A DNA stretch of 64,000 nt, from assembly GCA_947172415.1 (NCBI GenBank), contig OX359201.1, forward strand, positions 2,294,001-2,358,000, read 5' to 3'. Both the position numbers and the translations under genes were made by a program. Of the stretch, positions 1-62,603 are shown in pieces (position 1 is the stretch's first letter; each line of letters begins with the position of its first letter). The stretch is from Chondrosia reniformis (taxonomy: Eukaryota > Porifera > Demospongiae > Chondrillida > Chondrillidae). The notes below the pieces were generated by a model that ran no database searches, had not been told where the DNA came from, and saw nothing but the letters and a program-made list of their open reading frames with translations.

Positions 1-112
1 CTGCAAGCTCCTCCACTTACAGTACATCCAAGTAAAGATGCGACAAAGGTGTTCTGAAGGTTTGACATACAGGTTAGTGGCTGATATAACGAGGTCAGTA
101 GTATTGAATATT
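1..112 (-). pseudogene. 7TM-0: 7TM receptor fragment cut by the window edge
   Basis: This is the TM2-TM3 part of the 7TM family, continuing beyond the left edge. It matches the same region of 7TM-2 and 7TM-5, including the stretch around the conserved TM3 cysteine. Homology stops near base 112, where coding sequence runs into spacer DNA, so TM1 and the N-terminus are missing. An extra base near 18-23 breaks the frame, and 7TM-4 at 42077-42083 has the same change. The two therefore descend from one already broken copy. What lies to the left cannot be judged. Confidence 0.7.
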
Positions 113-683
113 AATATAAGGTAAAGATGCAATATACCAGTATATGTATGTAAATGTATATATTGTGAGAAAACCAATAGGAAAATGTACATGTATATGA
201 AAATTTCATAAAATTTAGTAATTGGCAATCGAAAAGTAATAAAGTATTACCTCACTGTTTAATGTTAGCTTTTGGTGATTTTGGGTAAGTGTACATGTGT
301 GGTTACTATAGTTCACTAACAGAATTAAGGCATTTCATTGGTGCTAAATTGAAGAATATAATAGTGTTCCCTTATTTATATGTGTCTGTTAAGTGTGAAT
401 GTACATTCAAAAATGACAAAGTATAATTATTTTTCTCCTTATATTCCATTGAAAATGAAGAGGAATGTATTGTTGTGATCTTTAAATAGTTCATGCCAAC
501 AATGAATCAACAAGTTGAGCAGGCATGAAAAAGTCATTATATAGGTTTTAAATATACATGTATACATACATATGTTTAACCAATGTAAGATTGACATCTC
601 ACGGTTAGTTTTAAACCCCACATATACCTATATTAACTGTAGTAAATTAATTGGAAAATGAGATATTCATATAATAATGACTT

Positions 684-736
684 GGGAAGTGGCTTTGATC
701 ATATATTATTACATAATATGATCAAAGCCACTTCCC
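684..736. repeat. Near-perfect hairpin, 20-bp stem
   Basis: The arms gggaagtggctttgatcata and its reverse complement flank a loop of about 13 bases. Further copies lie at 1172-1225 and 42741-42793. Each arm contains ATCAAAG. It may be a tiny MITE or a structured element, and nothing shows which. Confidence 0.8.
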
Positions 737-2017: not shown

Positions 2018-5000
2018 TCATACACACTTTTCATAAACAACTTCATTTGCACTGTCAGTTTTATCCTTTGTCATTGTAGAAGCATAAGCTGGGTTATGTT
2101 GTAGATCTACACCAGCACTGTAGAGGAAACAGAGGAAGTAGACATATTATATGGATTGCAATATTGCATTGTATGTATACTTTCACAAACAATCATCTAT
2201 ACCGTATAATGGGAAAATTGCGCTGAAGAAAATTTCGCAAAATTGTGCAAAATTGAACATTTCACGGTTTTAATTTCGCTTTTTGAAGTTTTTGTGATTC
2301 CTATACTCGTGTATTACTTACTTCACAATGCGAAGATTTCGCAAATTAGGTCAAATAAACCTCGTGAAATTTTCTTATCAGAGAGTATAGTCTTTCCTAA
2401 GAGTAAGGATGGCTGAAAAACAGTATCTTATTCATCTTGGATATCTATCATCTAAAAGTTGCTTAAAGCGGCCAGGAAATACAGTGAAAACTGGTTAACG
2501 AGAAATTCATGGTGCAAGCCAAATCATTTCTCATTAACAGTATTTCTTGTTATCAGATCTCCATACATGTAATGTAATGATCCAAAAGTATATATATATA
2601 TATATGCATATAAACACATTGATACACTAAAAATGAACTGCATACACAAAACCCAAAATATCAAAGCATAATAAATGTCAAGTTATGCAACTGAATTGTG
2701 TACTGTTTGGTCAAGTCAAGAGAAAAAGTTATTTAATGTCGTTTAGTTCTTTAACCATACTATGGCTGTCTCCAAAGCTAAAAGATCTTTTATTTTGCTT
2801 GGGTCTTTGTACAGAAAGTGCGGAAGGGTATGATGGAGGGGTAGGTAGCTCATCATCATCCGAATCTTCATCTTCTCTATCCTGCTGCACCTGTGAAGGA
2901 ATCTCCTCATCAGACACGTTTCCTATACTCCCATTGGCGCTGGAGTTTTCTCCCTCGACTTTAGTCCTGTTCTTCAAGAGCGTAGACAGTGTCGAATTGG
3001 GAATGTCGTACTTTTTACAAATTTCCGACTTAGAGAGCCTTTTGGCGTCAATCTCTTCGAAACATTTTTATCTTGAAATCTATCGAGTAGCTTTGTTGCT
3101 TCTTCGTGACTGCCCTCTTGACAAATTACACGTGTTAATGCAATCGTGTTAACAGGGAAAATTTCGCAGAAGAAAATTTCGCGATTTCGTGCAAAATCGA
3201 ACATTTCACGGTTTTAACTTCGCAATTTGAAGTATTTTGCGATTCCTATACTCGTGTATTACTTATTTCACGATGCGAAAATTTCGCGAATTAGGTCAAA
3301 TCATGAAATTCGCAAACATTAAACCTCATGAAATTTTCCCCACTAAACGGTGTCTTATTAGAGAATATATATAGTCTTTGCTATAAGAGTAAGGATGGCT
3401 GAAAAACAGTATCTTATTCATCTTGGATGTCTATCATCTAAAAATTGCTTAAAGCGGCCAGGAAATATAGGCAGCCTTAGGTTTGAACACACTTTACATA
3501 CGTAATGCAAGTTAGTTCGGAGGGGACTAAAATTGGATAGTTTTAGCACACTATTTTTAATTAAGAATTCTTGGTCATGGCTACTTAATATTCCAGATAT
3601 GCTAACTAGCAATATATACCTGCAATAGTGACATTATCGTTGCAGGCATTGTCATCCCTAATTCTATATTCATTGCTTATTTTACTTGTACATATATGTA
3701 CATATATCAATAATTGATTTCATAAATGTATACTCATGTTATATATGAATTCTATAAGCCTTCCTTTTATACTTTTTAAATAATTTATTGTTTATGCATG
3801 TACACAACTTACCCCTCATTCTTATTTTTATTTTCTTTATGACTAAATCTCTTCTTTGTACTTTTCATGATGAGGACATGTATCACAACAGCAACAATAG
3901 AAGTTAATATTGCACCTCCAAAGAAACCTCCAACAACTCCAATTGTACATGTGCAGTCACCATTTATTGATGGAGCAGATACTATTTGTTAATGTAATAT
4001 ATAATACATACATACAAATTATTAAAAATACATTTAAACCTTAATCCTATGCAACACAAATCTAGTGTAGTGTAACTTATGAACGAAATAAATAATGCAT
4101 AGTCAACTTGCTCACTTTCATTATCATTTAGGACAAGTTCTACAGACTGAGACTTTCCAAAAGCATTCAATGCTACAAGTGTGATGCAATATGAAGCATC
4201 TTCCACAAGTCCTGTTAACTTGTAGTGTGTGTTGTTAGTTGTAATAATAGTCACATTGAAAGTACAAGTCTTGTCCATTGTATAACTAAATTCATACCAA
4301 GTAACTCCATCACATGTAGTTGGAGGTGACTCATCCCATTCAAAGTAAACAGATGTTGTTGTTACTTGTTCTGTCATTTCTCTCAATCCTATTGGATCAT
4401 CTGGTGCTACACAGAATAAAGCATATGGAATAATTTATTCAGATACATTGTGATTCATAGAGTGGAAAGCATATAAACAGTCACCTCTATAGTACAGTCA
4501 TTACTGTACATAGTACAGTTGAACCCTTTTAACATGAAACTCAAGGGACCATTAGAAACAGTCATTATTACAAAGCCTACTATAGTATATGTTTGGACCT
4601 TAATTGATTCCATGCAAAGTAATTAAATTTTATTCATTCAATTAAAAAATGATAATTAAATTAAATAACACTAAATACTTTAGTATGGTTATGATATACA
4701 TTAGTGCACATGTCAAAGTCACAACACAAATAAGTCAGTGAATGTGGTCATTGATACGATTATATACCTCTCTCTGTTCCCAAACAAATTTCTAGCACAT
4801 TTGAAGGCTCAGACATTGTACCAGTATCAGTGTTAGCTGAGTTGACTGCCCTCACTCTCATGTAGTATGTAGGGAACTCTGGTCCTGTCCAGTTGTAGTG
4901 TGTTAAGTTATTTTGGGTAAGTACAGTTCCATTGATTGTGGTAAAGGTACTCTTTGTAGTGTACTCAATCTCATAAGAAGTGATCACTCCATTTGGGTTA

Positions 5001-7349
5001 ACAGGAGGTAGCCAGTTCAACTCAACTCCATTTTCAATATCTCTTGTAATTCTCAGCAGACGTGGAGGACTAGGAACTGAATAGAGACACAGATTCAGTT
5101 ATGTAGTTATAGTTTTGAACTAAACTCACTGTCATCTTCTGTTTTAACTGTCTTATCTATGGGTTGACTGACTCCACTACCATTTTTAGCCCACACTCTA
5201 ATCATGTATCTACTTCCAGCTGTCAGCTTGTTCAGAGTAACACTTGTACTGTCAGATCCACCCAACCTCATATAGGTTGGTGTGACTGGTACTGAGAAGT
5301 CCAGTCTTTCATAACTGATGTAATATCCAGAGCTTCCACTAACACTAGTCCAACTGAGTGTAATGGAATGTTGAGTGAGTTGTGTCACTGACAGATCATC
5401 AGTGGAAGTAAGAGAGGTAATGTCTACAGCAAGATTGCAGGATTATATATATTATATATCAACATGAAGTAAGATCTATATATAATAGTTATAGCCCATG
5501 GCCAGAGGCAAGGACTTCATACAGCCTCACTGAGTATATATATAATAATTTGGTCCAAATATAACTGTTATAGCTATATCCCATTGTGATAGCATTCGAA
5601 CATCCGAGCAAAATGGACAAAATATTTAAAGAAATTCTAGAAATTTGCTTCATATATCATATCAGCAATTCATACTGTATATGGTAGTTATTTGCCGCTG
5701 CTAGGTGGTTGCTATTTTTATTGAGTGACTATAAAATGGCTAATTGTGACACTTTCCCTTCATACAGTGGATATATTGTATTGGAGAGCAAACATATCTA
5801 GTAAATAAATAAATGACAATATCTAATCAGGTCCAGCTGATTCAATCAACACACACATATGTATAACCTCGAGTTTAAACGTAACTTAGCAACGCTAGCA
5901 AAATCTGTCGTCACACCTTTCCCACTCTTTGATCGGCAAATACAACACTAAAACACCTCCTTGGGGGTGTTAAAACTAATACATAATCCATCAATATCAT
6001 CTCATTACCCTGGCAATGGAAGATATATGGATTTATAATTAATATGGCTACATGTGTTTACAAACTGTGAATTGTGTAGTTTTGTAAAAATACACATTCT
6101 GCAATATTACATGAAAAAACATTCTACATAATGCTAACTTCGATTGACAAACATTCCAAACCATGCTGTCCTCTGATTTCCTTTACAGTAGAATTCTTCA
6201 TTTGAGGGATTCCTAGAAATTATTCTTGTTAACTGATTAAACCTTCCTTGAGTGCTATAATATGATGAATAAGAGTAACCTGAGGCGGGTGGTTTAGTTC
6301 CATTTCTATAATGCAATGACACTTCACCTGCACCACTACTGTAACAGAGGACACGATATCTAGTATTCCTTTCCACTAATATTGGAGTTCCATCAGTGAC
6401 AAAACTGTTTCTTGGAAAGTAGCTCCCAGGATACTGTGAACTTTGTTTCAAATATATGGACACTCCAGCTGTAAATAATACAGTATTTACAGAGTTAGTA
6501 TTATTATAAAAGTATAAACATAATACACATTTATAATACCCTATGGAATACACATTCCTTAAAAGAATACCATCCTTAGTATACGTACATTCTTTCCGAG
6601 GCTTACTTGAGACTATTTTATCTAAATAAGTTTCCAATTCCTTCTATTAAGCTGACATAATTCTAAACAATATCCATACAGAATGTTTGGAAGTGCTAGA
6701 ATATTAAAGTCCAATTTGAATTTAATTAATTATACTCTATTAAATGGTAATCATACAAAGAAGTAAACAAACTTGTAACACTGATCCTGTGAGTATCACT
6801 CCCCAGTATCACTCCATCACTTCTATTAGATACACTACACTGGTAGTCTCCACTATCCCACCTATGTACTATATCCACTACTACTGTGTCGTTGTACTGC
6901 CTCCTTGAACCACGCTGTGATGGTTCTGATGGATTGTCACAAGTACTTCCACTAGAACATGTCCAGCTGTAAGTCAGTTCACTTCCATAAGGTACTCCAA
7001 CCACTCTACACACCAAAACCACTGTTGTTCCTTGCTCCACTTCAGAAGTGTTTGGATAGGTATCGATCTTAACTGTAACATTAAAAGTTAAACTGTGAAG
7101 CACATGTATACAGATATTCTACGACACGTACAGTAACCTATATAGGTGTAATTTGTGATATATCTAACGAGTACTCTGTAGTAGCTCTTCTTACCTTGGA
7201 TGTTGCCTGGTCGGGAAGAACAAACTTGACCGGTTAAAAGACCTGAAGGAAATTGATCGGCTAAACTAATATAATATTTAGACTTATAATGCCTAAGATT
7301 TACCTTCGAAGAAGAGTGTGACAATTATTCCTGCGTAGTAAGTTGCCAT
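2018..7349 (-). CDS. IFR1: Ig-FN3 single-pass membrane receptor, intact
   Basis: Probable cell-surface receptor of 628 aa in nine exons: 7304-7349, 7195-7242, 6773-7072, 6139-6468, 5130-5423, 4768-5076, 4116-4406, 3813-3981 and 2018-2117. All introns are GT-AG and the total is 1887 nt. Exons 1-2 encode a signal peptide ([14 protein letters not shown], then a Cys-containing linker). Ig1 (about 32-131) shows VVLVC, YSWTC and DSGDYQC. Ig2 (about 132-241) has RVLC and EEFYC. Three FN3 domains follow (about 242-339, 340-442, 443-539) with [14 protein letters not shown] and many N-glycosylation sequons. The membrane helix (about 548-575) is Gly/Val/Ile-rich, then comes a basic KKRFSHK stop-transfer stretch. 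The tail carries HNPAY and ends EVVYEKCV. Unlike its siblings it reads NEGAGV where they read EYKYAGV or EYTYAGV, so two tail tyrosines are missing. Ligand and signalling partner are unknown; no kinase domain is visible. Confidence 0.85.
2215..2395. mobile_element. MITE-like element, copy 1 (TTTCGC-rich)
   Basis: This AT-rich block begins gggaaaattgcgctgaag and ends near gaaattttc, so its ends are roughly inverted. It contains repeated TTTCGC words and no coding sequence. A second copy lies at 3153-3343 in the same orientation, and host intron sequence to its right (about 2400-2482) is duplicated along with it. It lies in the last intron of IFR1 and looks like a non-autonomous DNA element. 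Confidence 0.6.
2483..3149 (-). mobile_element. pogo/Tigger-like DNA transposon remnant with CENP-B-type HTH
   Basis: On the minus strand, about 3070-2950 encodes KRLSKSEICKKYDIPNST followed by LSTLLKNRTKVE, the helix-turn-helix DNA-binding pattern of pogo/Tigger transposases. It runs directly into an acidic, proline-containing stretch (EDEDSDDDELPTPP) typical of the C-terminal tail of such proteins. The DDE catalytic core is absent, so this is an internally deleted, non-autonomous copy. A frameshift at an A run near 3065 separates the HTH from an upstream piece reading LLDRFQDKN. The left end at about 2483 begins cagtgaaaactgg after TA, as expected for this group. The right end abuts the second MITE copy and I could not find its terminal repeat. 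Confidence 0.7.
3153..3343. mobile_element. MITE-like element, copy 2
   Basis: This is a direct repeat of 2215-2395 with slightly better preserved ends (gggaaaatttcgc and gaaattttcccc). Duplicated host sequence follows it to about 3465. The two copies bracket the Tigger remnant, so that remnant inserted into, or was captured by, a duplicated segment. Confidence 0.6.
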
Positions 7350-8959: not shown

Positions 8960-11900
8960 TCATGTACACTTTTCATACATAACTTCATTTGCACTGTCAG
9001 TTTTATCCTTTGTCATTGTAGAAGCATAAGCTGGGTTCTGTTGTAGATCTACACCAGCACTGTAGGGGAAAGAGAGGAAGTAGATATGACAATTAATGAT
9101 TGCAATAATATTACACATACTTTCATGTATGTATGTACGTATACCTATAGTAGTATTCTCTAAGTAGGGATGGCTTAAAATGCACTATAATACTACAGTA
9201 CCCTATTCAATGTATTATTGTCTTGGATGCATATCTTAATAGCAAATAGGCAGCCTTGGGTTTGAACACATTTGACATGAAGCAAGTTACTCTGAGGGGA
9301 CCAAAACAGCCAGGTGCTATTAGCACACCATTTTTAATTGAGTTTTGGTCTCTTTGACTGCAATATTATTTTGAGTTATCACCAAGAGAACTTTCTAAAT
9401 AAAATTTGACAAGTGTATGGTTCACTTAATTTCCATATATCCAATTCTGTATGATCAGTCTTTTTACATGCGTCATTGTCTTGTTTCATTATTTTTCCAG
9501 ATGTGCTAGTCACGGTTGCAGGCATCATCATCACTAATCCTATCTTCATTTTTTAAAAGTTTCTATTTTACTAGTATGCATATATACACACCATAATTGA
9601 ATTCTCACTTCTTAATTTTATTATATTTAAATTATTATATAATTTCTGCATCTACATAAATAATTGGATTCTTAAATTATATGTACGTATGTACTGTAAG
9701 TACATAACTTACTATTTATATTCATTCTTATTCTTATTTTCTTCATGATTGAATCTCTTCTTTGTACTTCTCATGATGAGGACAAATATCAAAACAGCAA
9801 CAATGGAGGTTAGTACTGCACCTCCAAAGAAACCTCCAACAACTCCACCAATAACTCCACCAACAACTCCACTAGTACAGTCACCATTGATTGATGCAGT
9901 AGACACTATTTGTTAATGTAATATACGTACGTACATTAAGAATACAAATCATTAAAAATACATTTTAAACCTTGATCCACATATACACAAATCTAGTGAC
10001 AATAGTGTAACTTATGAACAAACTACATAAATAATGCATAGTCAACATGCTCACTTTCATTAGCATTTAAGGCAAGTTCTACAGACTGAGACTTTCCAAC
10101 AGCATTCACTGCTACAAGTGTGATGTAATATGTAGCATCTTCCACAAGTTCTCTTAAGTTGAAGTGTGTGTTGTTAATTGTAATGGTAGTCACACTAGAA
10201 GTCTTGCCCATTGTATAACTCAATTCATACCAAGTAACTCCATCACATGTAGTTGGAGGTGACTCATACCATTCAATTACAGATGTTGTTGTTGCTTGTT
10301 CTGTCATTCCTCTCAACTCTGTTGGCTTATCTGGTGCTACACAGAATTGCAGAATATACAGATCATTGACATTACACAATAAATGATAAACATTCATCTC
10401 TGTGAATCAGTGAGGAGAGTGAAATATATGAATGTGGTTACTGATAAGATTATATACCTCTCTCTGTTCCCAAACAGATTTCTATGACATTTGATGGTTC
10501 AGACATTGTACCAGTATCAGTGTTAGCTGAGTTGACTGCCCTCACTCTCATGTAGTATGTAGGGAACTCTGGTCCTGTCCAGTTGTAGTGTGTTAAGCTA
10601 TTTTGGGTAAGTACAGTTCCACTGATTGTGGTAAAGGTACTGTTTGTAGTGTACTCAATCTCATAAGAAGTGATCACTCCATTTGGGTTAACAGGAGGTA
10701 TCCAGTTCAACTCAACTCCATTTTCAATATCTCTTGTAATTCTCAGAAGACGTGGAGGACTAGGAACTGAATAGAGACACAGATTTAGTTATGTAGTTAT
10801 AGTTTTAAACTAAACTCACTGTCATTTTCTGTTTTAACTGTCTTCTCTATGGGTTGACTGACTCCACTACCATCTGTAGCCCACACTCTAATAACGTATC
10901 TAGTTCCAGCTGTCAGATTGTTCAGAGTAACACTTGTACTGTCAGATCCACCCAACCTCATGTAGGTTGGTGTGACTGGTACTGAGAAGTCCAGTCTTTC
11001 ATAACTCATGTAATATCCAGAGCTTCCACTAACACTAGTCCAGCTGAGTGTAATGGAATGTTAAGTAAGTTGTGTCACTGAGAGTTCTTCAGTGGAAGTA
11101 AGAGAGGTAGTGTCTACAGCAAGATTATATATCAGTATGCATTCACTAAGGAATTTAAAGTCCTGTATAAAATTTTATAAGGGTTACTCTGTTAGCTATA
11201 TATATCTGTACATGTGCAGTTTTGATTATATATATTATATATCAACATGAAGTAAGATCTATATATAATAGTTATAGCCCATGGCCAAAGGCAAGGACTA
11301 CATACAGCGTAGCGTTGTGATAGCATTTAAACATCCAAGCAAAATGGACAAAAAATTAAAAGAAATTCTAGAAATTTGCTTCATATATCATATCGGCAAT
11401 TCATACTGTATAGTTATTTGCCGTTGCTAGGTGGTTGCAATTGATATGTGTATTGAGTGACTATAAAATTGCTATTTGTGACACTTTCCCTTCATACAGT
11501 GGATATATTGTATTGGAGAGCAAACATATCTAGTAAATAAGTAAATGACAATATCTATCAGTGTGATTCATACGTACAATCCTGAGTTCAAACGTAACTT
11601 AGCAACTATAGCAAAATTAGTCGGCACATCTTTCCCATCCTTTGATCAGCAAATAAATAACTTAATACACCCTCATGGGGGTGTTATAACTAATACATAA
11701 TATCATCTCGTTACCCTGTCAATGGAGGATATATAGATGTATAATTAATATGCGTGTGTTTACAAACTGTATATTGTGTACGTAGTTTTGTAAAAATTCA
11801 CATTCTACAATATTACATGAAAAATCATTCTACATGAATGCTAACCTGGATTGACAAACATTCCAAACCATGCTGTCCTCTGATTTCCTTGACAGTAGAA

Positions 11901-12954
11901 TTCTTCATTTGAAGGATTCATAGAAATTGACCTTGTTAACTGATTAAACCTACCTTGAGTGCTATAATATGATGTATAAGAGTGACCTGAGAAGGGCACT
12001 TCAGTTCCATTTCTATAATACCATGACACTTGACCTGCACCACTACTGTAACAATGGATACAATATCTACTATTCCCTTCTATTAATATTGGAGTTCCAT
12101 CAGTGACAAAACTGTTTCTTGGAAAGTAGCTGCCAGGATACTGTAAACTTGGTTTGTAATATATGGACAAACCAGCTGTAAACAAGCATATGTAAGTAAT
12201 GTGTGTGTATATGTCTATTTACAGAGTACACCATTATTATGTATATTAATAAATACCTATATATGCACAGTAACAATACATGTGTATGTAATACTTAGAA
12301 ATCGGTCTAAGGAATATAGAATAGATTATTTATAAGAATACAATACTGGCTTATTATATACGAGACCGTGCAACATCACATGGTCTGTTGATAAGAACAT
12401 ATAATTAATCTTCTCCATTAAGCCCACCAAGCATGATTCTAAATAATACCCATACAGCCTTAAGAATTACTAGAACATTAAAGTCCAACTTGCTTTATTA
12501 AAATGACAATCATACAAAGAAGTAAACAAACCTGTAACACTGATCCTGTGAGTATCACTCCCCAGTATCACTCAATCACTTCTATTAGATACACTACACT
12601 GGTAGTCTCCATTATCCCTCTCATGTACTATATCCACTACTACTGTGTTGTTGTACTGCCTCCTTGAACCACATTGTGATGGTTCTGATGGATTGTCACA
12701 AGTACTTCCACTAGCACATGTCCAGCTGTAAGTCACTTCACTTCCAAAAGGTACTCCAACCACTCTACACACCAAAACCACTGTTGTTCCTTGCTCCACT
12801 TCAGATATGTTTGGATAGGCGTCGATCTCAACTGTGAAACACAAATGCCATCGGATATTCTACAGTAGCTGTAATTTGTGATATATCTAACGCGTACTCT
12901 GTATAGCCCTTCTTACCTTGGATGTCGCCTGGTCGGGAAGAGCAAACTTGACCG
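8960..12954 (-). pseudogene. IFR2: Ig-FN3 receptor pseudogene, 5' end replaced by a LINE
   Basis: The exons align to IFR1 at 12917-12954 (partial), 12532-12831 (Ig1), 11846-12175 (Ig2), 10820-11113 (FN3-1), 10458-10766 (FN3-2), 10055-10336 (FN3-3), 9713-9905 (membrane) and 8960-9059 (tail). Splice sites are kept. The signal-peptide exon and promoter are gone: homology stops in the second exon and a LINE fragment follows. There are in-frame stops in Ig1 (12572-12574, TGA in place of a Gly codon) and in FN3-1 (11061-11063, TAA in place of a Gln codon). FN3-3 is three residues shorter than in IFR1. The membrane exon has a longer GVVGG repeat, and the tail keeps EYKY, NPAY and a C-terminal Tyr. 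It is unlikely to give a receptor. Confidence 0.85.
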
Positions 12955-14628: not shown

Positions 14629-15739
14629 TTAGAGAAGATTTATAAGTGGGTTGGGATGTAATATAAACTTACTGTGTGGTTTTACAGTTCATGTATATCC
14701 ACCTATGCATATATGTAGTTGGGAGATGTCCTGTGAGATGTGGCCACTCTGATCAAAGTGTGCCAGAGTTGTGCTGAATGTATGACTTGAACACACAACA
14801 GCTCTAAATAGCTAGTATGTATGTGTATGCATATATAACCAATATTAGCTAGGAGTATGATATTAGCTACATATTTGTATACTACCTATATACATATTTG
14901 ATTTATTGCTATATACATGCATTATTAAATTTTTGCTAAGAAATATTTTACTTTAGTATCTATTCTCAGATTGCCATTCCTCAGCAATAGTTAGTGTATA
15001 TATGCCTTTGATATGGTTTAGCCTTAATATGTATAAAGATCAAATTCTATACATGTATATGTATATGTAATATTTTTACAATATTTATTATTTTATTTAT
15101 TATGTCATACTCATAATATATACGTATGGTATACTGTACATCAAATATTCAGCTATAGAATATCCCTCTGTATAACTAGATAAGGTTTTAACTGACTATA
15201 TATACAGCAAATGTTTATAACACAGGCCAACTATTCATTACCTACTCTTAATATTATTACGTATATATGTATCTATTGCTATCATCACTTGACAGATCAT
15301 TGAAATTTTAAAATATAGTTTACATTTTAACAGATACTCTTACTTACGGAAACTGCAGCTGGACATTTTTTCTGATGCAGTACTTCCATTCACATGCACA
15401 TGGTCAAATAAATTCCATTAATATATAATAATAATAAAAATACTATAAATAGCTTTGCATACTATAAATAGCTTTGCATCTTTATATATACCACATACAT
15501 ATAACACAGATTCATCACACCAATACGTATGTAGTCAATAAGGCTTAGCAACGATTTCTGTTTGTCATACTCATAATATATACGTATATAATATAAAAGT
15601 CAAAACATTTCAGCATAACTAATCAATGTTCATATGCATGTTCGTATATTGAGAAATCATAATACGTATATAATACCATGGAAGGTCCTCATACACAATT
15701 AATGGATAATTCACAAAGTTGATCATGCACTGCTGCATG
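14629..15739. other. Spacer between IFR2 and 7TM-1, no gene seen
   Basis: Host sequence resumes at about 14629 with ttataagtgggttgggatgt, which matches the upstream region of IFR5 at 30971. The conserved block (gttgggagatgtcctg) follows at about 14720. The rest is AT-rich spacer shared with 21060-21850 and 31140-31950. I see no coding sequence or RNA gene. Confidence 0.6.
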
Positions 15740-49100: not shown

Positions 49101-50849
49101 TTTCTTCAGGGTCCCTATAAATTACCAACAACTAAGAAAACCAATTGCAATGCATAAGGTTTACTTCACTATATCCTATAATCAGTGATTAACAGTGTAT
49201 ATGGTAGATAATCCCCCTTAGCTTGTTACCCTGGCAATAAGAGAAGAATAGCCTGTTGCCATGGCAACTGAATGGTTAATGGTGGGGTATATTCCAAATT
49301 TATCTGTTATTATCTGTGATTGGTCACAGATATATCTGGAGAAAAGTCAAACAGGAAATAAATCAATTTAATTTGTCACCTTTTACAACATTGCATCACT
49401 AAAAATCAATATCATCACACTATGGACAACAGAAAAATGAGTTACAGTCCATGCACTGAGACATCCACCAGAATATAATACTCAGTCAGCTTCGCCTCAG
49501 CCTTCTATTATATTGTGGCTACCTTCCTCACCTCTGGTCTATAACTTATACATATATAATTTGCTAGCTATAAATGTGGGCTATTTTTTAAAATGTACAA
49601 TCTGCAATAGACTAAGTACATGAAAAAACATTCTACATAATGCTAACTTGGATTGACAAACATTCCAAACCATGCTGTCCTTTGATTTCCTTGACAGTAG
49701 AATTCTTCATTTGAAGGATTCATAGAAATTGATCTTGTTAACTGATTAAACCTACCTTGTGCGCTATAAAATGATGTATAAGGACCTGAGAAGGGTGGTT
49801 TAGTTCCACTTCTATAATACCATGACACTTGACCTGCACCACTACTGTAACAGAGGACACGATATCTAGTATTCCTTTCTATTAATATTGGAGTTCCATC
49901 AGTGACAAAACTGTTTCTTGGAAAGTAGATTCCAGGATACTGTGAACTTGGTTTGTAATATATGGACACACCAGCTATAAAATATACAGTATTTACAGAG
50001 TCAGCATTATTAGGTATAAGCATATTTATGTATACATACGCATTTATAATACCCTATGGAATATATATACATACACATTTATAATACCCTAAGGAATACT
50101 TTACTTAAAAGAATATCATCCTTAGTATACATACATTCTTTCCGGGGCTTAATTGAGACTATGCTATCTAATTAACTTTCCAATTCCCTCTATTAAACTG
50201 ACTAAATTATAAACAATATCCATACAGAATGTCTTGTAGTGCTTGAATATTAAAGTTCAACCTTTATTAATGGTAATAATACAAAGAAGTAAACAAACCT
50301 GTAACACGGATCCTGTGAGTATCACTCCCCAGTATCATTCCATCCCTTCTATTAGATACACTACACTGGTAGTCTCCATTATCCCCATCATGTACTATAT
50401 CCACTACTACTGTGTTGTTGTACTGCCTCCTTGAACCAGCCTGTGATGGTTCTGATGGATTATCACAAGTACTTCCATTAGCACATGTCCAACTGTAAGT
50501 CAGTTCACTTCCATAAGGTACTCCAACCACTCTACACACCAAAACCACAGTTGTTCCTTGCTCCACTTCATAAGTGTTTGGATAAGCATCGATCTTAACT
50601 GTGAAACACAAATGCCATTGGATATTCTACAGTAGCTGTAATTTATGATATATCGAACGAGTACTCTGTAGTAGCTCTTCTTACCTTGGATGTTGCCAGG
50701 TCGGGAAGAGCAAACTTGACCGATTAAAAGACCTGAAGGAAATGGAACTAATTAACAGTTTTACGTAGTTATAATATTTAGACTTAAAACGCCTAAGATT
50801 TACCTTCGAAGAAGAGTGTGACAATTATTCCTGCGTAGTAAGTTACCAT
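46132..50849 (-). CDS. IFR7: Ig-FN3 single-pass membrane receptor, intact
   Basis: Nine exons: 50804-50849, 50685-50732, 50299-50598 (Ig1), 49648-49974 (Ig2), 48174-48467 (FN3-1), 47821-48120 (FN3-2), 47065-47361 (FN3-3), 46762-46942 (membrane) and 46132-46231 (tail). The total is 1893 nt, 630 aa, all splice sites canonical. Ig1 has VVLVC, YSWTCANGSTC and VHDGDNGDYQC. Ig2 is one residue shorter, with SGTKPPFSGPYTSFYSAQ in the variable loop. FN3-2 lacks three residues near GTLS. FN3-3 carries the VMIELV insertion. The tail reads NEYTYAGV, HNPAY and ends VVYEKCT. The FN3-1/Ig2 intron is enlarged (about 1.2 kb). It lies directly downstream of IFR8, and both could follow the intact 7TM-5. Confidence 0.85.
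48468..49647 (-). other. Enlarged IFR7 intron with repeats
   Basis: This intron is about 0.45 kb longer than its homologues. It contains an (aatc)n run at 48760-48782, AT-rich (taa)n sequence to about 48960, and a gggagggtctattagctaac stretch at about 48799 that has no counterpart in the other copies. The palindrome-like ggtgggag/ggagcccacc pair flanks a short piece at 48796-48841. No coding sequence is seen. Confidence 0.4.
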
Positions 50850-53333: not shown

Positions 53334-56300
53334 TCAAGTACACTTTTCATACACAACTTCATTTGCACTGTCAGTTTTATCCTTTGTCATTGTAGAAGCA
53401 TAAGCTGGGTTATGTTGTAGATCTACACCAGCACTGTAAGGGAAACAGAGGAAGTAGATATGACAATTAATAATATTATACATACTTTCATGTATGTATG
53501 TATATGGACCTATAGTATAGTATTCAGGGATGGCTTATAAACGCACTACTGTACCTTATTCAATGTATTATTGTTTTGGATGCACATCTTAATAGCGAAT
53601 AGGCAGCCTTGGCTTTGAACACACTTGACATGAAGCAAGTTAGCTCTGAGGGGACCAAGTCAGGTGCTATTAGCACACCATATTTAATTAAGAGTTTTGG
53701 TCTCTTATTATTTTGAGTTATCACTTTTCTATTATCTATTATCTATTTTCTAAATAAAATTTGACAAGTGTATGAGTCACTTAATTTCCGTATATCCAAT
53801 TCTGTATGATCAGTCTTTGTACATGCATCATTGTCTTGTTTCATTATTTTTCCAGATCTGCTAGTCACTCTTACAGGCATCATCATCAAAAGTTTAACAT
53901 TATTTTTTATGTTTTTATTTTACTAGTATATGTATTAGTTATACCACGGCGCTGAGGTGTATATGGATTTTATACGTAGAGTCTTTACTAATCCTATCTT
54001 CATTTTTTAATGTTTTTATTTACTAGTTTGTATATATACACACCATAATTGAATTCTATGGATATAAATAATATATTTAATCATTTCTGCATGTACATAA
54101 CTTACTACGTATATTCATTCTTATTCTTATTTTCTTTATGACTAAATCTCTTCTTTGTACTTCTCATGATGAGGACATGTATCACAACAGCAACAGTGGA
54201 GGTTAGTACTGCACCTCCAAAGAAACCTCCAACAACTCCACCAACAACTCCACTAGTACAGTCACCGTTTATTGATGCAACAGACACTATTTGTTTATAC
54301 ATTATACATATATTAATTAAGAATGCAAATTATTAAAAATACATGTTAAACCTTCATCCACAAATCTAGCAGTTATGTAGTGTAACTAATGAACAAACTA
54401 ATGTAAATATAGTCAACTTTCTCACTTTTATTATCATTTAAGGCAAGTTCTACAGACTGAGACTTTCCAACAGCATTCACTGCTACAAGTGTGATGTAAT
54501 ATGTAGCATCTTCCACAAGTTCTGTTAGGTTGTAGTGTGTGTTGTTAGTTGTAATGTTAGTCACACTGCAAGTAAAAGTCTTGTCCATTGTATAACTCAA
54601 TTCATACCAAGTAACTCCATCACATGTAGTTGGAGGTGACTCATCCCATTCAATGTAGACAGATGTTGTTGTTGCTTGTTCTGTTATTTCTCTCAATCCT
54701 ATTGGCTCATCTGGTGCTACACAGAATAAAGTATATTAATACAAAGATACATTGTAACATATGCAGATCATTGACATTACATAGAGTGGAAGGTGTAAAC
54801 ATTCACCCCTCTGGTACAGTCACTGCACTGTATATATAATAGTCAGTATCACAAAACCGACAATATTCATTTGGATCTTAACTTCCATAGTTAATAAATT
54901 AAACACACTTTCATTTATGCAAATAACAAATGGCAATATATTATATACAATGCCCCTTGACATTATTCACTGATTTACTGGAACTACGAACATATATATA
55001 TGATACTGCACTCCCGATAATTTCTAAGTAAGATTTACTATGTATTTACTAAATAATTATTTAAGTATGGTTATGATACGTTAGTGCATGTCAAACTCAC
55101 AGCACAAATAAAGTCAGTGAATGAGGCCAGTTAAAATATATGAAAGTGGTTACTGATATGATTATATACCTCTCTCTATTCCCAAACACATTTCTAGCAC
55201 ATTTGAAGGTTCAGACATTGTACCAGTATCAGTGTTAGCTGAGTTGACTGCCCTCACTCTCATGTAGTATGTAGGGAACTCTGGTCCTGTCCAGTTGTAG
55301 TGTGTTAAGCTATTTTGGGTTAGTACAGTTTCACTGATTGTGGTAAAGGTACTGTTTGTAGTGTACTCAATCTCGTAAGAAGTGGTCACTCCATTTGGAT
55401 TAACAGGAGGTAGCCAGTTCAACTCAACTCCATTTTCAATATATCTTGTAATTCTCAGAAGACGTGGAGGACTAGGAACTGAATAGAGAAACAGATTCAG
55501 TTATGTAGTTATAGTTTTAAACTAAACTCACTGTCATCTTCTGTTTTAACTGTCTTCTCTATGGGTTGACTGACTCCACTACCATTTGTAGCCCACACTC
55601 TAATCATGTATCTAGTTCCAGCTGTCAGATTGTTCAGAGTAACACTTGTATTGTCAGATCCACCCAACCTCATGTAGGTTGGTGTGACTGGTACTGAGAA
55701 GTCCAGTCTTTCATAACTGATGTAATATCCAGAGCTTCCACTAACACTAGTCCAGCTGAGTGTAATGGAATGGTGAGTGAATTGTGTCACTGACAGGTCT
55801 TCAGTGGAGGTGAGAGAGGTAGTGTCTACAGCAATATTAATATATCAACATGTAGTATGATATATAAAATATATATAGAGACGAGGAGCTACAGTCGAAT
55901 ATAAAATAATATATTTTGGCAAAATCTGTGGCAATGGGCTATAACTAATATTGTAACAGCATTCAAGCAGCCCGGGAATAAAATAGTTAAAAATTTAAAG
56001 GAATTCCAGAAATTCAGAGTCTAAAGAAATTACGACAACTAGGAAAAAGAATGTGTTAGATTTACTTCACTTCCTGTATTAACTTACTCAATCAATCAAT
56101 CAATCAGTCAACATTGTACAAACACTTGTTGGAGATTCAATAACTAATTATAGTTCAATGGTTCTCAGAGCACAAACAAAGTCATGATATAATATCGCAC
56201 AGCTTTTTATGAGTTTCAGATGGAAGAGGCATGAGGGGTCCCGGAGGCAACACATCACATTGCAGATCTCGACTATGCTTGACATCGCACTTCTCACCAA

Positions 56301-59300
56301 TACAGTTGGAAGTGCTCAGCATCTGCTCACTGCTCTTGAGACCAACGCTAAAACAGTCGGTCTCAAGATTAATGTTGCCAAAACAGAGTTCATGCTGGCA
56401 GGTGACTTCCTTGGGCAACCCGTGCTCACAATATCCAGCGGCCCCATCAAACAGGTGGATAACTTCAGGTAACTGAGATGTTGGATGAAGGACTCTAAGA
56501 AGGATTTTTGGTCTGGCAAGCTTTGGCATTTGATGCTGCCAACCGTATATGAGGCAGGTTTGGAGGTCAGACATCTCTAGGAGCCTGAAGGTCACACTTC
56601 AGGGCAATTGGTACTTGGTACCAGCCAGCTAGTGACCTAGTGTTCTGGCAGAGACAAGAGAGGTTTCGAGTAGGTCAGGCCAACAGCCTAACTTACACCC
56701 AGATGCTGTCACGCAACACAGGCCTCGAGCTGGATGAATTAAGAAGAGTTGCTGTTGTTAGGGACGAGTGGAGAAAGCTGTGCGATTAACTTGCTAATGT
56801 CGTATATCCTATTTATCAGCAATTCATGCTCCACATGGTAGATTATATTATTTACCAATATCATCTCGTTACCCTGGTAATGGGGGATATATAATTAATA
56901 TGCTAGCTATTTACAAACTGTGTATTGTGTGGTTTTGTAAAAATGCACAATTTCCAATAGTACATGAAAACACATTCTACATAATGCTAACTTGGATTGA
57001 CAAACATTCCAAACCATGCTGTCCTCTGATTTCCTTTACAGTAGAATTCTTCGTTTGAGGGATTCCTAGAAATTATTCTCGTTAACTGATTCGACCTACC
57101 TTCATTGAAAGAGTATGATGAATAAGAGTGATCTGAGAAGGAAGGCACTTTAATTCCATTTCTATAATACCATAACACTTGACCTGCACCACTACTGTAA
57201 CAGAAGACACGATATCTATTATTCCCTTCCACTAATATCGGAGTTCCATCAGTGACAAAACTGTTTCTTGGAAAGTAGATTCCAGGATACTGTGAACTTC
57301 TTTTGATATATATGGATACACCAGCTGTAAATTTATAAAATACAACATATATATATACAAATATAATGAAGGTACAGATAGTGTTTTAGTATTTATATAT
57401 ATTGAAAAATGTGTATTGCTATTCCAGCTGTAAATATTTACTATATATATTTACGAAGGATAGCATTATTATGTATGAACATATTAATATATAATATATA
57501 CCCGTTTATATATGTTGATCTATATGTGCGTGTCTGTGGATCTGCCTGCTGATTTTTCTGATTATTGCTTGCTATGAATCTCTCTTTCGTCCAACAAGGA
57601 TATGCTGTTCGCCCCACGTAACCTGATAGTAGGAAGTTATTCGTGTTTCACTCTCTGCTTGTGGAAGCGAAGTTCACACCTTCGTCCTGATCTGGAACAC
57701 GAAGGTCACGGGTGGTCATTATCCCCTTCTGCTATTGGATGCTGTTACTCACAGTGGATGTCGAGCTAAATCCAGGCCCAACCCGCTTTCCGTGCACCGT
57801 CTGCCACAAGTCAGTAATAAATCAGCCTGGGGTATGATGTGATGCTTGTGACAAGTGGACACATTCTGGCTGTGCCGCATTGCATGGCAAGGATGAGTAC
57901 GAAAGGCTGAGTATTGACAGTGAGTTAGAATGGTTGTGTCCCACCTGCATCACCTGACAGTACCTTCCTGTGTCCTATAACAAATCTCCTAATAACCTCC
58001 CACCCATCCATGCCTTCCCCCCTTGAGTCCTCATCAAAACTAGCTGTCTTCTGCTACATTAATGCCCAAAGTTTGATGAACAACCTAGATGAGTTGCAAT
58101 CCATTCTGTCTCTAGACCTGTAGGTTTCAGTGTAAGTGAGACTTGGTTTAATGACTCCATTCAAAATGGTGAGGTTGACATTCCATCTTATGTCCAGTAC
58201 TGGTGGGACTAAGGCAGTCACAGTGGTGGTGTATTGGTGGACATTCCTGTTAACTTGAGAAGCCACAGGAGGCCTGACTTGGAAGCTGAGGGTGTGGAAG
58301 TCATCTGGGTGGAGCTAGCTATATATACATAGAAAAAGGTTACACTCCAGACAATTTCCCTCTGAGTGGAAGAATGCAAACATTACTCCTATACTCAAAT
58401 CTGGAGACAAAAAAGACATAAATAACTTTCGACCCATTTCTGTTCTACCTTGTTATAGCCAAATTGTTTGAATTCTTCGACACCAAGCCACCACCACTCA
58501 CCACCGTGAGTATTTGGAGTCGAACAAACTCCTGAATGTTGCCCAATCTGGTTTTCAATCAAACCACTGCACCCAAGATGTCTTATTGAAATGCACTGAT
58601 GACTTGAAAACAGCTCTCAATGATGGAATGATTGTTGGTACAGTAATGATTGATCTGTCTAAGGCTTTGATTCTATAGACCATTTCCTTCTTTTGAAGAA
58701 ACTAGAACCTCTTGGAATCCGAGAAAAAGAACACTTTTGGTTTGAAAACTACCTGAAAGGAAGGAGGCAAAGAGTTGTTGTCAGCAGCACTTTCTCTGAA
58801 TGGAGAAGTGTAGTTACAGATGTGCCTCAGGGGTCCATTTTGGGACCACTCCTTTTCTTGGTTTTTGTGAATGATTTGCCCAGTGTAGACAAACACAGCA
58901 AGGTCAACCTCTATGCAGATAACACCTCATTCAGATGAATGTGGCCAGTGTAGTCAAACAAACCTCTATGCAGATGACACTTAATGAATGTGGGCAAAAC
59001 TCAGCTGATGGTCATGTGCGGCCACAAAAAGAAGCATCTGAGGACCTAGTTAAAGTGCGTATTGGGGAAGCCTTGCTATGGAAGCATGATTCAGTGTTAC
59101 AGTAGATAAACACCTACTTAAGTTGGAAGGCGCACATTGCTAATGTACAAAGGATAGGCTTGGGAAAAATTGCTGCCATCAGGCTGGTAGGTGTCTATCT
59201 TCTTAGCCAAGTCAGGAAAATGTTGTACTTCTCTTTTGTCACCCCCCATCTGGATAATTACTCAGTGGTTTGGCTCAATTGTGGTGTCGTCCTGACTAGC

Positions 59301-60486
59301 AGAGTTGAATGCATTCAGAACTGTGCTCTCAGAATGATTCTAAAAAACCTCCAATCAATCAATCCTTGGTGTCACTCATAGGAGGCTTTTTTGGAATCAT
59401 TCTGAGAGCATAACTAAAGATTCTCTCGTCACAAATTATCCAGCAAACAGAGGGGCTACCAATCTCTATCAAAGAAATCCCCATACTAATACTTATTGAT
59501 CATAAATATTTTGGAGCTGACAGACTTCCAGATCACATCAAATCCTTAAAGACTGAAGCTGCCTTCCAAAAGGCATTATTTTCCTCATCCACCTAACTGT
59601 TATAACTTGACAATAGCTTTCTAATAACCCAATTTGTTCCACAATGTGTTCATGTTTTATATTGTATTAGTAAATCAGGACCTGTATGAAAAGCTGCAGC
59701 TATTGCAGATGCAGTATTTCCTATTGCAAAATTAATGTAAAGTAATGGTGATGATGATGATGATGACATTCTATCCGGGGCTTACTTAATACTATGTTAT
59801 CTAATTTTCCTTCCAATTCCTTCTATTAAACTGATGTAATCCATACAGCCTTAAGAATGTTTTGTAGCGTTTGAATTAAAGGCCAACTTTATTAAATGGC
59901 AATCATACAAAAAAGTAAACAAACCTGTAACACTGATCCTGTGAGTATCACTCCCCAGTATCATTCCATCACTTCTATTAGATACATTACACTGGTAGTC
60001 TCCATTATCCCATTCCTTTACTATATCCACTACTACTGTGTTGTTGTACTGCCTCCTTGAACCATACTGTGATGGTTCTGATGGATTGTCACAAGTGCTT
60101 CCACTAGCACATGTCCAACTGTAAGTCAGTTCACTTCCATAAGGTACTCCAAATACTCTACACACCAAAACCACTGTTGTTCCTTGTTCCACTTCAGTAG
60201 TGTTTGGATAGGCATCGATCTTAACTGTAACATTAAAAGTTAAACTGTGAAGCACTTGTATACGGATATTCTACGACACGTAATTTGTGATTTATCTAAC
60301 GAGTACTCTGTAGTAGCTCTTCTTACCTTGGATGTTGCCTGGTCGGGAAGAACAAACTTGACCAGTTAAAAGACCTGAAGGAAATTGATCAACTGATTTA
60401 GTTAAAATATTTAGACTTAAAACGCCTAAGATTTAATTACCTTCGAAGAAGAGTGTGACAATTATTCCAGCGTAGTAAGTTACCAT
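53334..60486 (-). CDS. IFR8: Ig-FN3 single-pass membrane receptor, intact, with two intronic LINEs
   Basis: Nine exons: 60441-60486, 60327-60374, 59925-60224 (Ig1), 56992-57324 (Ig2), 55532-55825 (FN3-1), 55170-55478 (FN3-2), 54426-54716 (FN3-3), 54106-54286 (membrane) and 53334-53433 (tail). The total is 1902 nt, 633 aa, with canonical splice sites. Ig2 is one residue longer than in IFR1, its loop reading [18 protein letters not shown]. Ig1 has [11 protein letters not shown]. The tail keeps NEYTYAGV, HNPAY and VVYEKCT. LINE fragments occupy the Ig1/Ig2 intron (about 57520-59766) and the Ig2/FN3-1 intron (about 56088-56786) without touching the splice sites. The next gene upstream is the intact 7TM-5, so this is the best preserved cassette. 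Confidence 0.85.
56088..56786 (+). mobile_element. LINE fragment in IFR8 intron
   Basis: The plus strand from about 56270 encodes [16 protein letters not shown], matching the segment after the catalytic YADD of non-LTR reverse transcriptases, then [16 protein letters not shown] and a VDNFRYL block. Further stop-containing pieces end in [12 protein letters not shown] short inverted copy of the 3' end (cgcacagctt near 56194 against aagctgtgcg at 56775-56784) lies at the left side, suggesting inversion at insertion. Host ttaactt flanks both sides (about 56079 and 56786), a possible target-site duplication. A (caat)n run borders the left edge. Confidence 0.75.
57520..59766 (+). mobile_element. 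CR1/L2/Jockey-like LINE, broken
   Basis: In order: [18 protein letters not shown] followed by a Cys/His cluster ([12 protein letters not shown] ... WLCPTC), a PHD-like zinc finger at about 57760-57960; an endonuclease start, [17 protein letters not shown] (about 58045-58095), with VSETWFND; then, after an internal deletion, reverse transcriptase blocks [45 protein letters not shown] and LYADN; then a C-terminal stretch ending near 59595. The 3' end is a (gat)n microsatellite at 59748-59766, as in CR1/L2-type elements rather than a poly(A) tail. Several stops and frameshifts are present. It lies in the Ig1/Ig2 intron of IFR8, on the strand opposite to the gene. Confidence 0.85.
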
Positions 60487-61646
60487 TCTTATCCAGTTAA
60501 CGATCAACAATAAAATGCAATAGGAACTGTAAACTGTTTAAAAGTGTAGCTGTAGGAACAATAATAAATCACGTGTGTAACTCGATCGTGGATGCACTAG
60601 CAGACTTAGGGACGGTCCAGAATTTTGTAAAGAGGAGCTTGACAGAAAGGATTAACATGGTTAGGGAATTAGTGTGTGTACCTATTTATGATATATAACT
60701 ACATAAATTTTCAATTTCTGTCTGCTATATATATATATTTGTAGGTACATCAACTGTATATAGTCAGTGTATATATGTACACATGTTAAATATGTAAGGA
60801 TATATATATATATAGCTGTAGAAACTATAATAAATCAAGTGTATATTGTAACTCGCGATCGTGCTACATGCATTATATAGCAGACGGATCATTGTAAAAG
60901 GGATTGCAAGAGTAAGAGTGTGACAGAAAGAAGAGGTTAGGAAAATAGTATATATCCTCTCAGAGGGAGTACTTCAAGCAAACAGAGACCCCACCCCCGG
61001 CCTAAATCTCCCACTGTGCAAGGTCAAGATGTCAACACATTAAGTACATTTTTCTATATTATCTTTATTTACTTTCACTTGTAGATATATATTAGCTCAG
61101 TATAACGTTATGTAGTGATGTTGTGTGTATTCACTGTATAGAGTCAGTGTATATGACAATTATGTCAAAATATATAACTGTTGCACACATTATATACTTT
61201 ACCTATATATATATTTTACAGAAGATTTATAAGGGTTGGTATATAATATATACTTTGTTGTATATGTCCACTAATGTTAGTTAATATGTAGTTGGGAGAT
61301 GTCCTGAGAGATGTGGCCACTCTGATCAAAATGTACCAGAGTTCTGCTGAATGTATGACTTGAACACAAATAGCTCTAAATAGTATGTGGTGTGTGCATA
61401 TATAACCAATATTAGCTATATAGCAGTATGATATTAGCTACTTATTTGTATGCTATATACGTACATATACGTACATGTATATACATGCAAATAATAAACA
61501 ACACTGGATAATTAGTGGAAAAGTCAAAACATTTCAGTATAACATGATCAATGTTCATATGCATGTATGTTATTGAGAATATAAAGAAATCATAACAATA
61601 CCATGAAGGTCCACACATACATGTATTGAATATTTCATAAAGTTGT
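60487..61646 (-). promoter_or_regulatory. Upstream region of IFR8 and 3' spacer of 7TM-5
   Basis: The shared upstream flank lies near 60570-60610. A second, TATA-containing version is near 60860-60890 (cattatatagcagac), as also seen upstream of IFR5. The conserved block gttgggagatgtcctgagag lies near 61291. No coding sequence is supported. Confidence 0.4.
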
Positions 61647-62603
61647 TTATACACCACTGGACAAAGTAGTACTTCCCTTCCTCCTCGTGATCACTCTACT
61701 GCATTTGCAAGTACATATAAAGCAGATCTTTTGACGAAGTGGCTGAAAATAGAGCAAAATGAGAAGAGAGGTTGGAAAGAGGGAAAAAAACACCAGCCAA
61801 CCCTCAGCTGTTAACACTATGTCCTCTAAAAGTGCTTCTTCGGCACCATCTCCCTCAGGCAAAGCTTCAGTGATGACTACTGGAACAATTTGACCAATAA
61901 AGCTTATTGTATTGCCAATTACAAGGAATAGAGTAAACCTTACAAGAGCCTTTTGTGACTTTAAGTCACCCGAAATGCTTCTGTGTCTTATGTAGAGGCA
62001 CGACAATATGGGAGTAACAATTGTCACTGCATAACTTAAAATACCGTAAAGGAAGACGTACATTATTAGAAAAGGAAGTCCACCTTCATCACTGAGAGTA
62101 GGCGAACAGGTAACATTCTTGGCAATTGTAATAGTAATAACCTGAGGACTCCAAACCACTGCATTTAATGAGATATTAATGACCCATATCATGCAAACAG
62201 TCAGCACTACATACCTCAGTACTACTCCATTGTGGCCATACCTTACAAACAGGAACACTACCACAGTGAAAACTGCCATAAATGAGAATCTGCAAGCTCC
62301 TCCACTTAAGTACATCCAAGTAAAGATGCGACAAAAGTGTTCTGAAGGTTTGACATACAGGTTAGTGGCTGATATAATGACATCAGCAGTATTGAGTATT
62401 ACTCCACTCAACCCAACAGTAATATTAGCAGCCAGGAGGTTGAGCATCAGAAGGCGCACAGGCTTTGGAAAAGTAGACTCTCTTAGAATCATAAGCTGGA
62501 CAAATAGATTCAAAAGTATGCCAGGAATAAGGAGAACTATCAATTCAATCAAAGCACCAACTCTGAACCTTTCCTGATAGGGAGTAGAGAGATTTGCATT
62601 CAT
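61647..62603 (-). CDS. 7TM-5: intact 7TM receptor, rhodopsin-like but divergent
   Basis: Single-exon gene of 318 aa. The start at 62603 (MNANLSTPYQERFRVGAL) matches the Met common to the family; the frame is open 50 codons further upstream, but that extension resembles the spacer and is not conserved. Features are as in 7TM-2: LLMLNLLAANITVGL in TM2, cysteines before TM3 (HFCRIF) and in loop 2 (NVTCSP), FVRYGHN at the end of TM3, SCLYIRHR after TM5 and YFQPLRQK after TM7. Most differences from 7TM-2 are conservative. The tail has CTCKCSRVITRRKGSTTLSS, with basic and Ser/Thr residues. It heads the cassette containing the intact IFR8 and IFR7, so co-regulation is possible but not shown. Confidence 0.87.
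   Translation of the reverse strand: MNANLSTPYQERFRVGALIELIVLLIPGILLNLFVQLMILRESTFPKPVRLLMLNLLAANITVGLSGVILNTADVIISATNLYVKPSEHFCRIFTWMYLSGGACRFSFMAVFTVVVFLFVRYGHNGVVLRYVVLTVCMIWVINISLNAVVWSPQVITITIAKNVTCSPTLSDEGGLPFLIMYVFLYGILSYAVTIVTPILSCLYIRHRSISGDLKSQKALVRFTLFLVIGNTISFIGQIVPVVITEALPEGDGAEEALLEDIVLTAEGWLVFFSLFPTSLLILLYFQPLRQKICFICTCKCSRVITRRKGSTTLSSGV

Follow-up and report, generated by a model that had tools for sequence, protein, structure and literature searches.

Why should two unrelated kinds of receptor gene alternate, copy after copy, on one strand of a sponge chromosome? The question is raised by a stretch of 64,000 nucleotides from Chondrosia reniformis (the window; C13:2294001-2358000 in assembly odChoReni1.1, 117,379,552 bases in 15 contigs), where genes for seven-transmembrane (7TM) receptors stand among genes for receptors with immunoglobulin (Ig) and fibronectin type III (FN3) domains, here called IFRs. 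Contig C13 is described as chromosome 13, of 6.9 Mb, in PMC12181767, which also gives an accession for the alternate haplotype; one haplotype was analysed throughout. A first-pass annotation had read the arrangement as a hint that the two receptor types act together or are regulated in common. On balance, we favour another answer, namely that the window's IFRs make up the short-tailed side of a family of paired receptors, matched to phosphatase-bearing partners by gene conversion limited to exons, and that the 7TM genes are passengers.

Intact IFRs have eight exons: a leader, two Ig exons (Ig1 and Ig2), three FN3 exons (FN3-1 to FN3-3, or FN1 to FN3 in the comparisons below), a transmembrane (TM) exon that encodes GGVVGG repeats, and lastly a short tail. 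In IFR1, IFR6, IFR7 and IFR8, one open frame of 609-617 amino acids runs across all seven joins; consensus patterns guided the placing of the splice sites, which are therefore to some extent built into the models, and the real test of these models is that a single frame stays open over every join. The protein matches Ig and three fn3 domains in Pfam; Ig2 alone gave no Pfam match above the cut-off, and we class it as probably Ig-like from its cysteine and YxC pattern. These genes belong to a larger array, cluster B, which comprises the window array and 116 kb further left, reaching about C13:2177.7 kb (examined: C13:2174001-2378000, 204 kb, and the window). Cluster B holds 21 IFRs with an Ig1 exon, 10 of them intact by our own criterion as applied to splice-aware models, and a leader lies upstream of Ig1 in all but one of the 21. 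Its short tail carries tyrosine motifs, NPAY...VVYEKC. Seven protein tyrosine phosphatase (PTP) peptides matched nothing in the 204 kb at E 1e-3, nor does the genome-wide list of PTP exons (the best 150 scored candidates) have an entry there, and we rejected PTP exons hidden in cluster B on these grounds.

The ectodomain of the IFRs recurs elsewhere with a different cytoplasmic part. Searches with Ig1 and Ig2 (125 of 125 candidates scored) placed 44 Ig1 exons of the IFR subfamily in the genome: 21 in cluster B, 22 in a second array, cluster A, and one on C4; distant Ig matches (≤52% identity) on C1, C3, C4, C8, C9, C10, C11, C13 and C14 were excluded from this count. Cluster A occupies C13:1.627-1.951 Mb, about 0.3-0.7 Mb from the window, and 19 of its 22 Ig1 exons (one partial) are on the plus strand, opposite to cluster B. 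About 54 kb of it were read directly, and the ectodomain comparisons cover 20 of the 22 copies, along with 3' stretches, inter-receptor stretches and the C4 gene. Downstream of their FN3 exons, the cluster A copies A1735 and A1775 and the C4 gene have a different TM and then receptor tyrosine phosphatase exons with the WPD, HC/SAGVGRTG and KNRY regions; A1735 and A1775 also show SDGLGRS in a second PTP-like domain. When joined, three D1 exon peptides of A1735 match Pfam Y_phosphatase (8e-31) and, in PDB, best PTPRS (5e-47), as well as LAR/PTPRF and PTPRA, and the FN3 part has PTPRF among its best matches, after titin. The cluster A and C4 genes thus appear to join the IFR ectodomain to a LAR-type receptor tyrosine phosphatase, with all exons presumably spliced into one transcript. 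Both tail types occur within cluster A: A1802 reads into a TM like those of cluster B and a short tail with NPAY, and B-like TM or tail exons lie near 1625, 1630, 1644, 1805, 1890 and 1945 kb. By our assignment from exon position, 14 of the 22 copies are followed by a phosphatase exon, four by short-tail exons and four by neither.

A 1999 study by Ono is said to have reported multiple phosphatases in sponges. Like LAR, PTPRS and PTPRD (the R2A phosphatases), the cluster A genes, as read in A1735 and A1775, appear to combine an Ig and FN3 ectodomain, a TM, a D1 with WPD and HC-SAGVGR, and the second PTP-like domain; unlike them, they have only two Ig and three FN3 domains, form a tandem array and share their ectodomain with a short-tailed, phosphatase-free form. 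One sponge phosphatase of the R3 type is described in PMC5336234.

The likeness between the two clusters is confined largely to exons. Ectodomain exons of A and B are 85-93% identical, and for Ig1 the synonymous distance (dS) between clusters is 0.103 (non-synonymous distance, dN, 0.057; 380 pairs), compared to 0.093 within B and 0.097 within A. Corresponding dS values are 0.104, 0.093 and 0.104 for FN1 and 0.204, 0.150 and 0.223 for Ig2. The Ig1 of the C4 gene has a dS of 0.27-0.28, and synonymous sites are therefore free to change. The Ig1-Ig2 intron, in turn, aligns in 1 of 360 pairs between the clusters, in 46 of 153 within A and in all 190 within B, at an Ig1 synonymous distance that is about equal in the A-B and B-B sets (0.094 and 0.087). 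With only two A copies available, the FN1-FN2 intron aligns in 1 of 38 A-B versus 153 of 171 B-B pairs, and the FN2-FN3 intron in 4 of 40 versus 188 of 190. The 60 bp flanking Ig1 match at 0.52 between clusters, which is the level of shuffled sequence, compared to 0.93 for the exon itself (at most 150 pairs sampled for each cell), and similarity after FN1 is slightly above the shuffled level. No fixed A-B difference was found in Ig1, Ig2 or FN1, which share 20, 48 and 14 polymorphic sites, respectively, and a comparison of 13-14 phosphatase-type copies with short-tailed ones likewise gave zero. Because the A and B exons are alike, with dS near the within-cluster level, while their introns are mostly unalignable, ectopic gene conversion limited to exons is a well supported reading, in which exchange between the clusters is ongoing but incomplete; we infer it from these patterns rather than from any mapped or dated tract.

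A similar pattern is seen in the phosphatase part. At 94-98% DNA identity, copies of the Cx5R exon of D1 were located 18 times in the 1.655-1.957 Mb interval of C13, one of them a 58-base piece, and a single time on C4; C6 has an additional 41-base piece, and no copy is listed in cluster B. Between C13 and C4 this exon is 96-97% identical, with 3-6 third-position differences per 47 codons compared to 12-21 per 46 in the preceding exon, and the D1 exons other than Cx5R differ by 14-38%.

Several observations weigh against the paired-receptor reading. On the exon trees, the labels A and B fall into groups, with 8, 6 and 8 label changes for Ig1, Ig2 and FN1 versus about 14, 13 and 14 after shuffling, and strongly supported branches force only one, three and one label changes, respectively. 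Shared polymorphic sites fall below the label-shuffle means (25.5, 59.8 and 23.1), in FN1 below every shuffle. The intron pattern is less clear cut for Ig2-FN1, where 58 of 289 A-B pairs match against 136 of 136 B-B pairs, and the stretch before FN2 matches at 0.61 between clusters versus 0.51 when shuffled. The tail type of cluster A copies was read directly in three of 22 (A1735, A1775 and A1802) and by exon position in 15. A look upstream in two cluster A copies and in C4 revealed no counterpart of the cluster B leader exon, and the short-tail tyrosines fit no strict immunoreceptor tyrosine-based inhibitory or activation motif (ITIM or ITAM). As for the 7TM genes, a receptor phosphatase with D1 and D2 exons (C6:1899.3-1903.7 kb) is followed at a distance of about 2 kb, in the same orientation, by their nearest remote relative among the matches listed (42% identity, C6:1896.4-1897.3 kb); the pairing of a 7TM gene with a receptor phosphatase may thus predate cluster B.

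The clustered labels would also suit ordinary birth and death of a young family, in which A and B split recently, their exons are alike by descent and their introns turn over very fast. This account gains from the many broken copies and from introns within cluster B that are likewise more diverged than synonymous sites. It has difficulty, however, with the Ig1-Ig2 intron, which at about equal synonymous distance aligns in every B-B pair but almost never between clusters, even with the short-tailed A copies included, and with a C4 gene whose Ig1 has diverged so far in dS yet whose Cx5R exon stays nearly identical to that of cluster A. We consider it improbable.

The paired-receptor reading draws further weight from known systems. 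In vertebrate paired receptors, which are known from immune recognition, the ITIM of one partner recruits a phosphatase. Such receptors (CEACAM, Siglec-11/16, CD300 and KIR) resemble the sponge genes in having two clustered kinds with near-identical ligand-binding exons, different signalling tails and exon-limited similarity. For CEACAM pairs of Xenopus, conversion is reported to coincide exactly with the ligand-binding exon, and the two partners face opposite ways (PMC5112662), as most copies of clusters A and B do; for Siglec-11/16, the converted region is reported to span the binding exon, and exons so converted are under relaxed constraint (PMC5701461). The sponge family shows the same hallmarks: near-identical ectodomains, different cytoplasmic parts and, if conversion is the cause, homogenisation confined to exons apart from the two exceptions at FN2 and in the Ig2-FN1 intron. 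It differs in that one partner carries the tyrosine phosphatase itself in place of a recruiting ITIM, in its Ig-Ig-FN3x3 domain set and in the many copies of both kinds.

How might such a family work? Ectopic conversion confined to exons would keep the ectodomains of both kinds matched while introns, TM and tails stay different, so that the phosphatase kind and the short-tailed kind may bind the same ligand or ligand family. The former would strip phosphate from tyrosines; the latter would make the tyrosines of NPAY and EVVYEKC available to kinases and adaptor domains, or else act as a non-catalytic competitor, and the outcome would be set by the balance of phosphatase and short-tailed receptors. 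Opposite signals at tyrosines from the same ligand would be the simplest functional reading, although the short tail may instead only compete and send no signal itself. The family may serve in immunity or self-recognition.

The first-pass annotation had likened the locus to the Alr complex of Hydractinia, a non-bilaterian animal whose tandem Ig-superfamily receptors include pseudogenes. The tandem Ig/FN3 cluster with pseudogenes was borne out by our exon map and gene models, and a recognition-type locus remains plausible, its case strengthened by an exon-homogenised ectodomain shared between two signalling types. The Alr likeness itself is general, since the sponge receptors have FN3 repeats and a phosphatase partner family, and vertebrate paired receptors are closer. 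A true allorecognition complex of the Alr kind, with hyperpolymorphic IFR ectodomains that bind themselves in trans, would be compatible with paired receptors. It would suit the tandem receptors, the mixture of intact and broken copies and the copy-number turnover, as well as the ratio of non-synonymous to synonymous change (dN/dS) within cluster B, which is 0.46-0.98 by domain and reaches 0.83 in Ig2 and 0.98 in FN3-3. Against this, homogenising exchange makes copies alike (the Ig1 protein is 87-100% identical to the query among cluster B copies), and windows of 20 codons had no clear replacement excess (highest about 1.1-1.5, on small counts), which led us to reject positive selection on the ectodomain. 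The dN/dS range fits relaxed or mildly diversifying evolution rather than strong positive selection, and the rapid change expected of these receptors was borne out only in part. We regard an Alr-type complex as unlikely.

We now return to the 7TM genes. A genome search for them listed 128 matches (the best 126 of 162 candidates scored), to which the following counts of remote relatives are limited. Close copies number 14, 13 in cluster B and one on chromosome 9, and all 14 lie among IFRs. Beyond C13:2.19-2.36 Mb and C9:4.21 Mb, identity is at most 49%; these remote relatives occur on at least 10 other contigs, many clustered on C1, C3, C4, C6, C9 and C11, and two IFR searches placed no IFR of the window's subfamily near them. 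No C13 match beyond 2.19-2.36 Mb was among those listed, and a close 7TM gene in cluster A was rejected as a candidate for this reason. The first-pass annotation had asked for the same linkage to be looked for elsewhere: the chromosome 9 copy keeps to the pattern, and half of the IFRs, those of cluster A, have no 7TM gene among the matches listed. Judged by the refuting condition set in that annotation, a joint role of the two families is not supported.

The earlier suggestion that 7TM genes, IFRs and their spacers were duplicated together was upheld. Stretches of 8.0 kb and 3.4 kb, at 97.4-97.6% identity, are shared between window positions 27436-39100 and a place about 134 kb to the left; this largest recent duplication holds a 7TM gene, IFR5 and most of IFR6. 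An 8.3-kb cassette (3' half of an IFR, 7TM, IFR) is also present at C9:4206987-4215290. The linkage can be explained by this process, because tandem and ectopic duplication copied a unit holding both genes.

Most 7TM copies are broken (12 of the 14), and only two, both in the window, are open over their full length. Three of the broken copies keep a single frame to about residue 273-278, with a frame change in the last helix. Three pairs share the place of a lesion: the copies at window 32903 and C13:2192493 (residues 142-147), at window 42170 and C13:2258472 (99/100), and at C13:2249495 and 2245002 (272-289). These genes were therefore duplicated when already broken. Open copies have a dN/dS of 0.22 (5 copies, 10 pairs), indicating purifying selection, and the gene has therefore been functional. 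Of 34 places with remote relatives, two have a PTP exon no more than 30 kb away (random mean 1.12, P 0.30) and one has an fn3 exon nearby (random mean 1.33), counting the best 150 scored candidate exons of each type; this does not exceed random placement, and we rejected a general association of the 7TM relatives with phosphatase or FN3 genes.

That 7TM and IFR form a functional cassette, held together by selection because the two act jointly or are regulated in common, has in its favour the two intact copies, the purifying selection on open copies, the constant company of IFRs and the possibly old pairing on C6, but with 22 of the 44 Ig1-bearing IFRs lacking a close 7TM gene, lesions that were themselves copied, remote relatives placed as if at random and duplication sufficient to account for the linkage, we hold it to be quite unlikely. 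The 7TM genes are probably passengers caught in the duplication unit of cluster B. A further candidate, the 7TM as C-terminal part of an IFR in the manner of adhesion G protein-coupled receptors (GPCRs), was rejected because an intact 7TM has its own ATG and stop in one exon and the IFRs have their own TM and tail.

As to their nature, the window 7TM genes are probably rhodopsin-like receptors, judging from remote matches. A profile of eight family members gave 5-HT2B as best match, at a weak E of 0.004, and one of the eight matches Pfam 7tm_1 (1e-4); the window protein alone matches nothing, Pfam included, and its AlphaFold2 model from the single sequence has a pLDDT of 46. In Amphimedon, the rhodopsin-like GPCRs AqRho A-E are described as sponge-specific tandem clusters of 2-8 adjacent sequences (PMC4302439). 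The window 7TM genes are likewise tandem sponge receptors, a likeness by description, and differ in standing inside an IFR array, mostly broken. On C6, a stretch at 1888.8-1903.7 kb carries three 7TM genes, 35-42% identical to the window's, behind the receptor phosphatase mentioned above and on the same strand, and a frame that we read as multicopper-oxidase-like adjoins this trio at 1887.5 kb.

Within the window itself, self-alignment, a tblastn exon map and splice-aware models confirmed the six 7TM and eight IFR copies of the first-pass annotation, all on the minus strand, and their transcription order of one 7TM followed by one or two IFRs. From high to low coordinates, the order is 7TM 62603; IFR8, IFR7; 7TM 42170; IFR6; 7TM 32903; IFR5, IFR4; 7TM 22804; IFR3; 7TM 16590; IFR2, IFR1; 7TM 114. 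Half of the IFRs and two of the six 7TM genes (62603 and 22804) are intact, and the other four 7TM copies are frameshifted, truncated or interrupted by stops (Table 1).

Table 1. Receptor genes and example exons in the window (window positions)
Feature	Position	Strand	State and basis
IFR8	53334..60486	-	Intact, 617 aa; leader exon, Ig1, Ig2, three FN3, TM, short tail; 8-exon splice-aware model; Pfam Ig and 3x fn3
IFR7	46132..50849	-	Intact, 614 aa; splice-aware model
IFR6	33596..39759	-	Intact, 609 aa; third FN3 exon twice (36036-35752, 35370-35086); tail ends in VVYI, not VVYEKC
IFR5	27385..30179	-	Broken; third FN3 ends after 33 residues, TM gone, tail truncated
IFR4	23728..25262	-	Broken; Ig2 runs to residue 43 and then into FN3-2; FN3-1, FN3-3 and TM absent
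IFR3	17474..20890	-	Broken; leader and Ig1 absent, Ig2 partial; three FN3, TM and tail present
IFR2	8966..12832	-	Broken; stops in Ig1 and FN3-1, leader missing
IFR1	2018..7349	-	Intact, 612 aa; splice-aware model
7TM	61647..62603	-	Intact, single exon, ATG at 62603; open reading frame and translation
7TM	41442..42170	-	Broken; lacks residues 1-68, with frame changes near residues 99 and 279
7TM	31952..32903	-	Broken; frame change near residue 142-147, same place in copy at C13:2192493
7TM	21854..22804	-	Intact, single exon, 316 aa
7TM	15739..16590	-	Broken; stops and frame changes
7TM	1..114	-	Broken; runs on left of the window
Leader exon, example (IFR8)	60441..60486	-	Exon map
Short tail exon, example (IFR8)	53334..53433	-	Exon map and splice-aware model

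Other features of the array were also recorded. A conserved stretch upstream of IFRs (minus strand, window about 31308-31204, 26157-26053 and 21215-21126) recurs across many units, where it is open in certain copies and interrupted by stops in others, and is possibly a promoter or 5' untranslated region. Two stretches with a GC content of 0.46 and single-copy within the array, 12955-14622 and 56089-56785, are probable insertions, the former directly upstream of the IFR2 Ig1 at the expected position of the leader. A short-tail fragment lies in reverse orientation at 43471-43533 (plus), flanked by a 55-base inverted repeat (43277-43331 and 43674-43728). Rfam and tRNA searches gave no match. In cluster A, a retroelement follows the FN3-2 exon of one receptor (C13:1759900-1765100), with a reverse-transcriptase frame of 615 aa and a tyrosine-recombinase-like frame of 365 aa, which we read as DIRS-like. 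Many further tyrosine phosphatase and FN3 exons stand together at C6:0.61-1.26 Mb and other places on C6, probably as other receptor phosphatase arrays, and fn3 exons are lined up along C8:1680520-1697692, evenly spaced at intervals of about 0.67 kb.

We found no earlier report of this paired-receptor signature in sponges in the literature searched, from which most subscription papers are missing. Beyond the window, we tentatively suggest, as a serious possibility that we stop short of favouring, that sponges evolved paired-receptor recognition independently of vertebrates, with a catalytic receptor tyrosine phosphatase as the inhibitory partner and a short-tailed receptor with tyrosine motifs as the other, kept in register by exon-by-exon conversion across two inverted clusters and between chromosomes. 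If true, this would be a second paired-receptor solution, with the phosphatase built into the receptor, and would supply candidate genes for the question of sponge self-recognition. Chondrosia reniformis is described as a high-microbial-abundance sponge (PMC12181767), and the family would then be a concrete candidate for the sensing of microbes or of individuals in an animal without lymphocytes.

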